Shown one piece after another: positions 16,156-24,205 of a stretch of 64,000 bases of DNA. The notes under the pieces are model-generated. The model worked only from the letters and a program-made list of their open reading frames with translations, was not told the DNA's origin and did no database searches. Made by a program: the position numbers and the translations under genes. Position 1 is the stretch's first letter. The number at the start of each line of letters is the position of its first letter. Origin of the DNA: Rhizobium leguminosarum (GTDB lineage Bacteria; Pseudomonadota; Alphaproteobacteria; Rhizobiales; Rhizobiaceae); assembly GCF_001679785.1 (NCBI RefSeq), contig NZ_CP016286.1:4226501-4290500 (forward strand). The letters run 5' to 3'.

Positions 16156-17232
16156 TCATTGGATCGCCGGCTTGTCGTTCGGAACCGGGCCGACATCCGG
16201 TAACGCGCCATCGGTGCCCTCAGCCGACGCGGCTGCCGGAGCGGCGGCGAGTGCGCTTGCGGCGGAGGGTCCACCATAGGTGGCGGCCTGCATCGAAGCA
16301 ACGGAAGCGGCATTGAGCACGGCGGCGCAAGCGTTGGGCAGATCGGTGACCATCATCTCACGCGGCGGCTTCGGCGGCTTGGCGCCGGGCTTGGGCGGTT
16401 TCGGCGGCGCCCAAGGCGTCGGCGTGAACCAATAGGCGAGCGACTTGTCGCAGCCGTCGCCGGCGGGAACAGGAGCTTGCGGCGTGCATCCGGCAGCGCC
16501 CGGCGGGCATTTGATGCGGATGTGGAAATGCGAGTCATGGCCGTATATTGGCCGGAGCTTACCAAGGTTGGTGCGGTCGCCGGCCCAGGTGTCGCACATC
16601 TTCTTCTTGATCGCCGGATTGACGAAGATGCGCTCCACTTCGGGATAGCTCGCCGCCAGCATCAAAAGCCGCGCGTGCGATTGCGTCCACACCTTAGGGT
16701 CGACGGTCAGGAACTTGCCCTTCTGCAGCATGGTGGTGAAGGGCAGATACTGGCGCTCCTCGGCCGTCATGCGGCGCGCCGGCATCGGGCTAAACCAGAT
16801 ATCGGCATCGAGGCCAATCTGGTGCGAGGAATGGCCGTTGAGCATCGGCCCGCCGCGTGGTTGCGCGATATCGCCGACAAGGATGCCCGGCCAGCCGGCA
16901 TATTTGACCGCATCCTGCGAAAACCGCTCCAAGAGCGCGATCATGGCCGGATTGCCCCAGCGACGGTTGCGCGAAAGCCGCATCGCCTGCCAGGTCGGCC
17001 CGTCGGTCGGCAGCGCCACCGCACCCGTCATGCAGCCCTTTGCGTAAAAGCCGATCGGCTGTGCCGGCCCCTGCGTCGGCAGGCCGACGGCGCCGAACTG
17101 CCCCTTGGCGCTGCCCGGGCTCGGCGTCTTCTGCTCAGCGCCGACGTCGCCAACGGCAAGGCCTGCGCCGATCGCGCCGGCGAGCGCCAGTGTGCCTAAT
17201 GTCCTGAAAGCCTGGGCGAAGCCGAAAGCCAT
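16156..17232 (-). CDS. mepA: Penicillin-insensitive murein endopeptidase MepA
   Basis: Periplasmic M74-family metallopeptidase that cleaves D-Ala-meso-DAP cross-links, 358 residues. A signal peptide follows the ATG at 17232 (MAFGFAQAFRTLGTLALAG). Zinc-site segments are visible: LNGHSSHQIGLDADIWF and GHDSHFHIRIKCP. The ribosome site CAAGGGAACAGC favours this start over the longer frame to 17268. The last 60 residues are Ala/Pro-rich and outside the catalytic core. Divergent from yejA. Confidence 0.94.
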   Translation of the reverse strand: MAFGFAQAFRTLGTLALAGAIGAGLAVGDVGAEQKTPSPGSAKGQFGAVGLPTQGPAQPIGFYAKGCMTGAVALPTDGPTWQAMRLSRNRRWGNPAMIALLERFSQDAVKYAGWPGILVGDIAQPRGGPMLNGHSSHQIGLDADIWFSPMPARRMTAEERQYLPFTTMLQKGKFLTVDPKVWTQSHARLLMLAASYPEVERIFVNPAIKKKMCDTWAGDRTNLGKLRPIYGHDSHFHIRIKCPPGAAGCTPQAPVPAGDGCDKSLAYWFTPTPWAPPKPPKPGAKPPKPPREMMVTDLPNACAAVLNAASVASMQAATYGGPSAASALAAAPAAASAEGTDGALPDVGPVPNDKPAIQ

Positions 17233-17362
17233 GCTGTTCCCTTGATTCGATGTCGAAGTGATTTGCACTCGAATCTATCCTGAAAAGCGATTTTGGTGAA
17301 TCGATGATTTGCTGGACGGGCGCAGCAGGGGCCGGTGACGGAACGCCGCAGCGCCTCAGGCA

Positions 17363-19477: not shown

Positions 19478-20566
19478 ATGGGCGCCTATGTCATTCGCCG
19501 CCTGCTTCTGATGATCCCGACCATCGTCGGCATCATGGCGATTTCCTTCATCGTCATTCAATTCGCGCCGGGTGGCCCGGTCGAGCAGGTGATCGCCCAA
19601 TTGACCGGCCAGGCCGATGGCGCCGATCAGCGCCTGTCCGGTGGCGGTGACCTGATGGGTGACGGAGGAGGGGACGAAGGCTCCAGATATCGCGGCGCCC
19701 AAGGGCTCGATCCTGAACTGATCGCCAAGCTCGAAAAACAGTTCGGCTTCGACAAGCCGCCGCTGACGCGTTTCGGCGAGATGATGTGGAATTACATCCG
19801 CTTCGATTTCGGCGAGAGCTTCTTCCGCAACACCTCCGTGCTCGACCTCATCAAGGAGAAGCTGCCGGTGTCGATCTCGCTCGGCATCTGGATCCTGATC
19901 TTCTCCTATGCGATTTCCATCCCGCTCGGCATTCGCAAGGCGGTCAAGGACGGATCGACCTTCGACGTCTGGACCTCGGGCGTCATCGTCGTCGGCTACG
20001 CCGTCCCGAGCTTCCTCTTCGGCATTCTGCTGATCGTGCTTTTCGCCGGCGGCTCCTTCTACGACTGGTTTCCGCTGCGGGGCCTGGTTTCCGACAATTT
20101 CGATCAGCTCGCCTGGTGGCAGAAGCCGCTCGATTATTTCTGGCACCTCACCCTGCCGCTGATCTCGCTTTCGCTTGCAGCCTTCGCGACGACGACCTTG
20201 CTGACCAAGAATTCCTTCATCGAGGAAATCAAGAAGCAGTATGTCGTCACCGCCCGCGCCAAGGGTCTGAATGAGCGGCAGGTGCTTTACGGCCATATTT
20301 TCCGCAATGCCATGCTGATCATCATCGCCGGTTTCCCCGGCGCCTTCATCTCCGCCTTCTTCACCGGATCGCTGCTGATCGAAAATATCTTCTCGCTCGA
20401 TGGCCTCGGCCGTCTCGGCTATCTCTCTGTGGTCAACCGGGATTATCCGATCGTCTTCGCCACACTCTACATCTTCTCGCTGCTCGGTCTGTTCGTCAGC
20501 TTGATTTCGGACCTGATCTACACCTGGATCGATCCGCGCATCGATTTCGAGCGGAGGGATGTCTGA
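19478..20566 (+). CDS. yejB: Peptide ABC transporter permease YejB
   Basis: Inner-membrane permease of 362 residues, DppB-type. It has an N-terminal membrane segment ([20 protein letters not shown]), a YejB-type periplasmic insertion (about residues 40-85, Gly/Asp-rich) and about five more membrane segments. The permease loop [19 protein letters not shown] contacts the ATPase. It follows yejA by 150 bp with no gene or hairpin seen there, and overlaps yejE by one base (TGATG). Confidence 0.93.
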
Positions 20567-21714
20567 TGGACGCCGCCGCAAATCCTGTCACTGCAACCCC
20601 CGTCAAGCCGCCGCGCAAGGGGCTGCTGTCGCCGACCAACATCCGTCGCTGGAAGAATTTCCGGGCGAACGGCCGCGGCTACTGGTCGCTGTGGCTTTTC
20701 CTGCTGCTGTTCGGGCTCAGCCTGTTTGCAGAATTCCTCGCCAACGACCGGCCGGTCATCGCCTCCTACAAGGGCGAAATCCTGTTTCCCGTGCTGATCG
20801 ACTATCCCGAGGAGAAGTTCGGCGGCTTCCTCGCAGAAACCGACTACCGCTCCTCCGTCATTGCCGACGAGATCAACGCCAACGGCTGGATGATCTGGCC
20901 GCCGATCCGTTATTCCTACCGCTCGGTCAATTCGAACATTCCGCATTCGGCGCCGACCGCCCCGTTCTGGCTGATGACGAAAGAGGAGCGTTGCGCCGGC
21001 TATCCGCAAGGGATGAACGATCCCGCCTGCACCCTCGGCAATCTCAACTGGCTCGGCACCGATGACCAGGCCCGAGACGTGCTCGCCCGCGTCATCTATG
21101 GTTTCCGCATATCGGTGCTCTTCGGCCTGGCGCTCACCATCTGCTCGGCGATCATCGGCGTCACGGCAGGTGCGGTGCAGGGCTATTTCGGCGGCTGGAC
21201 CGACCTCCTGCTGCAGCGTCTCATCGAAATCTGGTCGTCGATGCCGGTGCTTTACATCCTGCTGATCATCGCCGCCATTCTGCCGCCAGGCTTCTTCGTG
21301 CTGCTCGGCATCATGCTGCTCTTTTCCTGGGTCGGTTTCGTCGGCATCGTGCGCGCCGAATTCCTGCGCGCCCGTAATTTCGAATATGTCCGCGCCGCCC
21401 GCGCGCTCGGCGTCAACAACCGCACCATCATGTGGCGGCACATGCTGCCGAACGCCATGGTCGCGACGCTGACCTTCCTGCCCTTCATTCTATCCGGATC
21501 GATCACGACGCTGACTTCGCTCGATTTCCTCGGCTTCGGAATGCCGCCCGGCTCCCCTTCGCTCGGCGAGATGATCGCCCAGGGCAAGACCAACCTGCAG
21601 GCGCCGTGGCTCGGGCTGACGGCCTTCTTCACCATGTCGATCATGCTTTCCCTGCTGATCTTCATCGGCGAAGCCGTGCGCGATGCTTTCGATCCGAGGA
21701 AGACGTTTCAATGA
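20566..21714 (+). CDS. yejE: Peptide ABC transporter permease YejE
   Basis: DppC-type inner-membrane permease of 382 residues. One N-terminal membrane segment precedes a long periplasmic region (about residues 65-170, including SVNSNIPHSAPTAP), then five segments with the loop VRAARALGVNNRTIMWRHML. This long insertion is typical of YejE. In most bacteria yejF follows directly; here a toxin-antitoxin pair lies between them. Confidence 0.93.
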   Translation: MDAAANPVTATPVKPPRKGLLSPTNIRRWKNFRANGRGYWSLWLFLLLFGLSLFAEFLANDRPVIASYKGEILFPVLIDYPEEKFGGFLAETDYRSSVIADEINANGWMIWPPIRYSYRSVNSNIPHSAPTAPFWLMTKEERCAGYPQGMNDPACTLGNLNWLGTDDQARDVLARVIYGFRISVLFGLALTICSAIIGVTAGAVQGYFGGWTDLLLQRLIEIWSSMPVLYILLIIAAILPPGFFVLLGIMLLFSWVGFVGIVRAEFLRARNFEYVRAARALGVNNRTIMWRHMLPNAMVATLTFLPFILSGSITTLTSLDFLGFGMPPGSPSLGEMIAQGKTNLQAPWLGLTAFFTMSIMLSLLIFIGEAVRDAFDPRKTFQ

Positions 21715-21786
21715 TTGGAGTCATCTCGTCATTTCCAGGCGTTCAGACTAAGGTTAGGTATGACGCAACTTTTGAGGCACAGGCCG

Positions 21787-22077
21787 ATGAACAAGATCGT
21801 GTTTGAGCATTATCCTGCATCGAAGCTGCCGGAAGAACTCCGAAAGGGCCTGGAGAAAGACGCCATGGTGCGGGTGGTGATCGAGGAGGAAGCCAAGGGC
21901 GAGGGGAGAGACCCTTTTCCCGGTTTCAGAATCCTGCCGAAGATTGAGCGGAAGCCGATGACCACAGGCGAAACCCTCGCCGCCATTCGGCGCATAAAAG
22001 CGGAAGACAGGCCGTCGGTGACTGCCGAGGAAGCGGTCGCCAGAATTCGCCGGCTGCGGGATGAATGGGACGATTGA
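21787..22077 (+). CDS. Putative antitoxin of a PIN-toxin pair
   Basis: A 96-residue, charged protein with an N-terminal MNKIVFEHYPASKLPEEL segment and a C-terminal helix rich in Arg/Asp/Glu. I recognise no named family; the antitoxin call comes from size, position directly before a PIN-domain gene, and a one-base stop/start overlap with it. It starts 72 bp after yejE. It has no obvious ribbon-helix-helix or AbrB motif; the middle TTGETLAAIRRIKAEDR may be a toxin-binding helix. Confidence 0.6.
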   Translation: MNKIVFEHYPASKLPEELRKGLEKDAMVRVVIEEEAKGEGRDPFPGFRILPKIERKPMTTGETLAAIRRIKAEDRPSVTAEEAVARIRRLRDEWDD

Positions 22078-22576
22078 TGCAAGGTGTCAGTAGAATTTAT
22101 CTCGACACGAATATTTTCATCATGGCATTCGAGAGGCGGGACGAGACGAGTGATCGCCTCGCTCAACTGCTTGCCGCCGGCGATGCTGATGCCGAGCCGA
22201 GATTCGTGACGAGTGAGCTCACGCTGTCCGAGCTTCTGGTGACACCGTATCGTCAGAATGACGACAGCCTGATCGATGCGTATGAAGGGCTGATCCTGAC
22301 GAGCAGCTGGCTTGAAGTGCTCCCGATCGTTCCACCCACGCTTCGATATGCTGCTGTCCTGCGGTCTCAATATGGCAGCCTGAAATTACTGGACGCCATT
22401 CATCTATCGACGGCCATCGGCGCAAACTGTTCGCATATCCTGACGGACGATCGGGGAATAAAGGACGAATACCGGCTCACGCATCAGAGATATGGGCGGA
22501 CAGCGGAAGCTCGGCCCTTGACCATTCTTCGTCCGGATGAGCCCACTCTTTCCTCCCTCCTGAAAAGTCTGCCCGA

Positions 22577-22580
<4 letters not shown>
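22077..22580 (+). CDS. PIN-domain ribonuclease toxin (VapC-like)
   Basis: A 167-residue PIN protein. Expected acidic residues are present: SRIYLDTNIF (Asp10), SELTLSELL with the conserved Glu, KLLDAIHLS with Asp, and ILTDDR with Asp. These would bind Mg for RNA cleavage. The ATG at 22077 overlaps the antitoxin stop (TGATG); an ATG at 22065 is an alternative. Its stop overlaps the yejF start by four bases. Codon use looks slightly more A/T-rich than the yej genes, suggesting acquisition. Confidence 0.85.

Positions 22581-24205
<1,625 letters not shown>

Follow-up and report, generated by a model that had tools for sequence, protein, structure and literature searches.

Why would a gene pair resembling a toxin–antitoxin (TA) system be lodged inside the operon of a peptide importer, yejABEF? 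The question is raised by a 64,000-nucleotide stretch of Rhizobium leguminosarum DNA (assembly GCF_001679785.1, contig NZ_CP016286.1, positions 4,226,501 to 4,290,500), which is called the window below. Here, a gene for a 96-residue putative antitoxin (AT, 21787–22077) and a gene for a 167-residue PIN-domain putative toxin (TX, 22077–22580) lie on the forward strand between yejE, the permease gene forming the left flank (20566–21714; Pfam BPD_transp_1, E 3.4e-30), and yejF, the gene for the ATP-binding cassette (ABC) ATPase forming the right flank (22577–24205; two ABC_tran stretches, E 1.6e-63). A 72-bp leader (21715–21786) separates yejE from AT, the AT stop and the TX start share one base (TGATG), and the TX stop overlaps the yejF start by 4 bases (ATGA). 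These coordinates and overlaps, first given in a preliminary description of the locus, were verified; its term "fused" is too strong, since the genes overlap yet remain separate. Both frames are open in the window. A second in-frame TX start is present at the ATG at 22065, and relatives share the start at the AT stop. Judged from comparative sequence analysis, the pair is probably (at a rough probability of 0.72) a chromosomal type II TA system of the VapC/FitB-like kind, with a hybrid antitoxin, that occupies a single-site and recombining allelic locus.

The state of the yejE–yejF gap within the genus was compared first, as yejE is present in all 148 genus genomes and the gap could be read in every one. 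Two classes of gap length were found: the spacing is -4, -1, +2 or +5 bp in 128 loci (127 genomes, one of which has two yej copies), and 21 of the 148 genomes have a filled gap of 814–862 bp holding the AT–TX pair. No insert other than this pair was found in the 149 genus yej loci. The spacing comparison, which the preliminary description had proposed, thus reveals a pair that is not fixed in the relatives. The order yejE–AT–TX–yejF is kept in 21/21 carriers, as are the overlaps of 1 or 4 bases between AT and TX and of 4 or 1 between TX and yejF, which argues that the arrangement does not result from chance. Since 127 genomes lack the pair and have yejE and yejF directly adjacent, an intact operon is compatible with its absence. 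G084 and G111, whose YejE is closest to that of the window (G and L numbers denote genomes and loci), have an empty gap, in which yejF begins 5 bases past the yejE stop, and their yejB–yejE DNA is 96.2–99.5% identical to that of the window. On a quick genus yejF tree, carriage requires 8 changes. With empty and filled alleles in such closely related genomes, the question of why chromosomal TA pairs are kept becomes testable.

The assignment of TX as a PIN-type toxin is based on a match to PF01850 (E 6.2e-19). In alignment A2, D10, E52 and D125 are invariant (120/120 rows) and D106 is kept in 119/120, so the PIN acidic residues, whose function the preliminary description had made a point to check, are conserved. 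The structure predicted for TX (predicted local distance difference test score 91, predicted template modelling score 0.88) was matched by Foldseek mostly to VapC chains, with the FitB complex 2h1c at rank 15, and the sole solved relative by sequence is VapC 7by2 (E 5e-5). No NCBIfam match to the window TX was obtained up to E 1, and no PADLOC-DB family matched either AT or TX up to the same value. Codon 105 of the window TX (22389–22391), beside D106, encodes L; this position is P in 118/120 rows and Q in one, L occurring only in the window, and the close relative P0121, which is 99% identical, has P here.

The antitoxin was described earlier as belonging to no recognised family, and this is borne out: no Pfam or PADLOC family matches the window AT up to E 1, and its one NCBIfam match reaches 13.3 bits against a cut-off of 77. 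A total of 469 homologues was found at E 1e-3. Among 50 AT relatives, the recurring matches are all sub-threshold: 10 relatives match DUF349 (best E 0.0081) and 16 match PRK10204 (best E 0.016). PF22513, the FitA-like ribbon-helix-helix (RHH) family, is absent in the window AT and not among the matches listed for these 50 relatives. The window AT consists of a conserved N-terminal stretch (about residues 1–35), a variable middle and a FitA-like C-terminal tail ending EEAVARIRRLRDEWDD. Profiles of the N-terminal and C-terminal parts were applied to FitA-like antitoxins encoded with related PIN toxins at other places in the genomes. The C-terminal profile scored 20.5–33.2 bits on 9/9 tested proteins, compared with 12.8 bits for the best of 4,500 shuffles, while the N-terminal profile scored -1.4 to -0.1 bits on the 8 of them for which a score was reported. 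These proteins come from 18 listed of 21 non-yej toxin loci, of which 13 are FitA-like by eye and 9 of those 13 were profile-tested; weaker toxin places (G182:C200, G365, G387, G223 and G364) were left out. On these profile scores, AT is a hybrid of a locus-specific N-terminal domain and a FitA-type tail. In FitAB, such a tail enters the PIN active site. Databases list many of the toxins under the name "type II toxin-antitoxin system VapC family toxin"; the antitoxins that bear a name there are mostly called "hypothetical protein".

Beyond the genus, the AT alignment search was positive in 59/394 family genomes (28/109 genera, E 1e-4) and in 40/397 order genomes (31/141 genera, E 1e-3), both sets being samples drawn from larger groups. 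Together with the genus carriers, this gives 114 distinct genomes from 18 families by the tool's codes. Within the sensitivity of the search, the AT homologue adjoins yejE and/or yejF in 114/114 carriers, with both flanks visible in 112; in the remaining cases, the contig stops before yejF (L237) or only yejF is recognised (L286). A further scan gave six named loci, all in the yejE–yejF gap. Four of these are from Rhizobium leguminosarum Tri-43, Rhizobium sp. BK650, sp. CG5 and sp. 18055, and the other two from Rhodopseudomonas, where the match is limited to the first 35 AT residues. In 385 class genomes, AT matched the window's own genome and, weakly and partially, G1084 (E 1.5e-5, without yej). 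A tblastn search with the window AT gave 0 matches in 72,556 plasmid records and 50,697 phage records, and no match in viral contigs was confirmed. The AT family thus seems confined to one transporter-operon gap over an order, yet it is diverse and exchanged between species.

Several loci outside the genus deserve separate mention. L217 carries a second pair of another kind between yejE and AT (a Rv0623-like antitoxin and a PIN protein, both Pfam-checked), and L179 and L213 have a second PIN pair in the gap that resembles it by look. At L280 a cation-efflux gene (Pfam-checked) is also located in the gap, L197 and L259 look alike, and L260 and L264 share a similar extra kilobase. An additional match to the AT N-terminal stretch lies upstream of AT at L256 (G343) and L257 (G272), which suggests a partial duplication. 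Finally, the match in G1084 (L224, outside the order) is a lone, weakly AT-like protein, near which neither a toxin nor yej was matched in the stretch examined; it possibly points to a wider origin of the AT domain.

To follow the history of the cassette, its divergence at synonymous sites was compared with that of the yejE/yejF flanks in 210 genus carrier pairs. At p 1e-3, the cassette is significantly more diverged than the flanks in 195 pairs, significantly less diverged in 8, and neither in 7. The 8 pairs include the window versus G089, G136 and G171; for G171, the cassette value is 0.141 compared with 0.415 for the flanks (p 2.6e-12). Cassettes less diverged than their flanks suggest that they were recently passed from one species to another and entered the same gap. 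For these 8 pairs, nonsynonymous divergence is below synonymous divergence (p 9.3e-4 to 4.6e-14), so the cassette is constrained, with purifying selection between close carriers. A different kind of exchange is seen between G158 and G115, which share 95% identity in yejE, 100% in the leader and 97% in AT codons 1–33, then 47% in the rest of AT and 51% in TX, with identity returning to near 100% about 45 bases ahead of the TX end and standing at 95% in yejF. Comparable breakpoints were found in the three other allele pairs examined. These mosaic alleles indicate that the promoter and the N-terminal domain are retained, and that the tail is exchanged jointly with most of the toxin. Such a division would be expected of an N-terminal domain that recognises the operator and a tail that has to match its toxin. 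The small upstream gene by which a TA pair is recognised is co-inherited at 21/21 genus loci, and alleles that differ in TX differ in the AT tail as well. The genus median distance is 0.55 for the toxin and 0.10 for YejF, and across the order (one locus per genus) the correlation between toxin and YejF distances is weak (rho 0.20). For the TX tree, 9 of 142 loci were excluded for short or missing toxin matches; L215, which is the same locus as L235, was excluded from both the tree and the following count.

Judged by profile coverage, both genes are whole in 107 of 119 yej loci and neither in 2. A whole AT accompanied by a frameshifted, short or missing TX is found at 8/119 loci, and the reverse at 2/119, namely L279, where yejE and yejF are in pieces, and L259, from a 65%-complete genome. 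This direction of decay matches the prediction for an addiction system, although the numbers are small. At L178, which has no toxin match, AT persists in a longer form that matches the C-terminal tail a second time.

Expression signals were sought in the leader. The motif TCGNNN-N17-TANNNT, defined post hoc from reading the leaders, is located about 30 nt before AT in 22/34 non-redundant leaders of the genus and family; any of the other spacings between 10 and 24 yields 0–2/34, and shuffles at spacing 17 gave 0.24. The leaders had been thinned from 49 to 34 for genus and family and to 10 for the genus, with L197–L223 uncounted and L179 excluded for its 741-bp leader. Many leaders in other families of the order are only 10–40 bp long, too short for such a promoter-like element. 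In the window the element reads TCGTCA (21726–21731)-N17-TAAGGT (21749–21754), 32 nt upstream of the AT ATG; it scores 7/12 against the sigma-70 consensus, and a strict sigma-70 scan reported no promoter at this leader. An operator-like inverted repeat, AGTTGC-N7-GCAACT, overlaps the -10 with at least 3/6 pairs in 7/10 non-redundant genus leaders, where the mean is 3.70 pairs of 6 and none of 200 shuffled sets exceeded 3.12 under the identical scan. Within the genus, for which this repeat is shown, it is missing in G169, G110 and G072 and weak in the window allele (21752–21770, 3/6 pairs). Since no terminator-like site was detected in 21500–22800, read-through into yejF is expected. In carriers, the importer ATPase gene follows a toxin gene and, likely, an extra promoter.

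The mean pairing with the 16S rRNA tail is -7.6 kcal/mol for AT and -5.7 for TX, compared with a background of -3.2 (sd 2.75). For yejF, it amounts to -3.2 in filled and -2.4 in empty alleles, no better than background, and this weak pairing in both states would be expected if yejF translation were coupled to the gene immediately before it, be that TX or yejE. The earlier proposal that yejF translation is coupled to the toxin gene is therefore plausible, with the overlap present in 21/21 genus carriers; however, yejF pairs no more strongly where the gap is empty (128 loci), so the insert gives yejF a different gene to be coupled to and does not introduce the coupling itself.

In comparison with known systems, the cassette shares with FitAB the PIN toxin fold, the FitA-like antitoxin tail and the antitoxin gene in first place, and differs in that its AT N-terminal domain is not a FitA-like RHH and that it is bound to one operon gap. 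Similarly, a PF01850 toxin whose acidic residues are conserved, the structural matches dominated by VapC and the small overlapping upstream gene are in line with type II VapBC systems, while AT falls below every VapB family cut-off in Pfam and NCBIfam and the carriers examined hold the cassette at a single chromosomal site. VapBC10 of S. meliloti is likewise built on a rhizobial PIN toxin, and cleavage of tRNA-Ser by VapC10, relieved by VapB10, is reported for it (PMC10945364); "yej" is absent from this text, and the VapC10 target is not transferable to the cassette toxin. Makarova et al. 2009 (PMC2701414) likewise predict antitoxins from the pairing of a small gene with a PIN gene; judged by description, none of the PIN-associated families in section 9 of that article corresponds to AT. 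TA pairs frequently figure as mobile modules, as in the abstract of the same article. With regard to the host operon, it is reported that YejBEF and YepA recycle muropeptides in A. tumefaciens, where yejB, yejE and yejF are each needed and yejE and yejF carry consecutive gene tags (PMC9790009), that phazolicin enters S. meliloti through YejABEF and BacA, each being a route (PMC10128002), and that S. meliloti yejE and yejF mutants have raised sensitivity to 3/4 tested nodule-specific cysteine-rich (NCR) peptides (PMC8406287). The main texts of these three articles contain no word starting with "toxin", and no report of a PIN/VapC TA pair in the yejABEF operon was found in the literature searched. 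A toxin of this type is thus already known; for the confinement, the hybrid antitoxin and the allele exchange, the same literature yielded no description.

These observations can be combined into a working model. The cassette promoter would drive AT, TX and yejF, and the AT N-terminal domain would repress this promoter at the inverted repeat. AT would neutralise the toxin, which is predicted to cleave RNA once the labile antitoxin falls. Homologous recombination via the conserved yejE and yejF flanks would move the cassette between species, whereas new toxin alleles may enter by crossovers in AT (about codon 33) and near the toxin 3′ end. The cassette could persist through addiction, as cells would pay for losing the antitoxin, and through its overlap with yejF, owing to which imprecise deletions would damage the importer. 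This combination is preferred for persistence but is the least certain step of the model, a tie to peptide import being its main rival. Such a link, raised in the preliminary description as an effect of losing the pair, is possible at most, given that the pair's absence is the common state.

The most developed form of this rival is an operon-dedicated regulator, in which the pair tunes the YejF supply or answers imported peptides (muropeptides or antimicrobial peptides), AT setting the yejF transcript level from its own promoter and the PIN protein trimming or silencing mRNA. Residence in one operon over 18 families, the promoter-like element ahead of AT–TX–yejF, the 8/119 loci with a whole AT and no whole toxin, and the cell-wall recycling role reported for YejBEF in the order (PMC9790009) are all consistent with it. 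However, 127/148 genus genomes manage without the pair, and the fast divergence of the toxin next to the slow divergence of YejF suits conflict or exchange better than a fixed regulatory part, so we consider this explanation unlikely. Also unlikely is a polymorphic importer guard, whose toxin alleles are swapped at a fixed locus by crossovers within the AT gene, since differing from neighbours matters; here the allele exchange is likened to the exchange of specificity parts in other conflict systems. If this were true, the pair would sense when YejABEF, reportedly a way in for a rhizobial peptide antibiotic, is misused or lost and would arrest the cell, leading to kin discrimination or defence, and yejF itself would be under the antitoxin-controlled promoter.

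The unusual L105 of the window allele is what would be expected of a relic, in which a P105L change next to D106 abolished toxin activity and the overlap alone retains the gene. Against this, the four acidic residues are kept and the frames open, and the cassette was recently shared with other species under purifying selection between close carriers, making an inactive toxin in this strain improbable. The extra cargo at some loci outside the genus, a second PIN pair or a cation-efflux gene, would suit a plain insertion hotspot, a gap that takes any cargo and where PIN pairs often land. Such a hotspot is nevertheless improbable, given that no other insert was seen in the genus and that the AT family was found nowhere else in the 114 carrier genomes, which indicates a site specific to this family. 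The allelic TA locus proposed above is thus retained as the preferred explanation.

Adjoining the yej operon in the window, a gene for a penicillin-insensitive murein endopeptidase (Peptidase_M74, E 1e-95) is encoded on the minus strand at 16156–17268, a neighbour that fits a role of the operon in cell-wall recycling.
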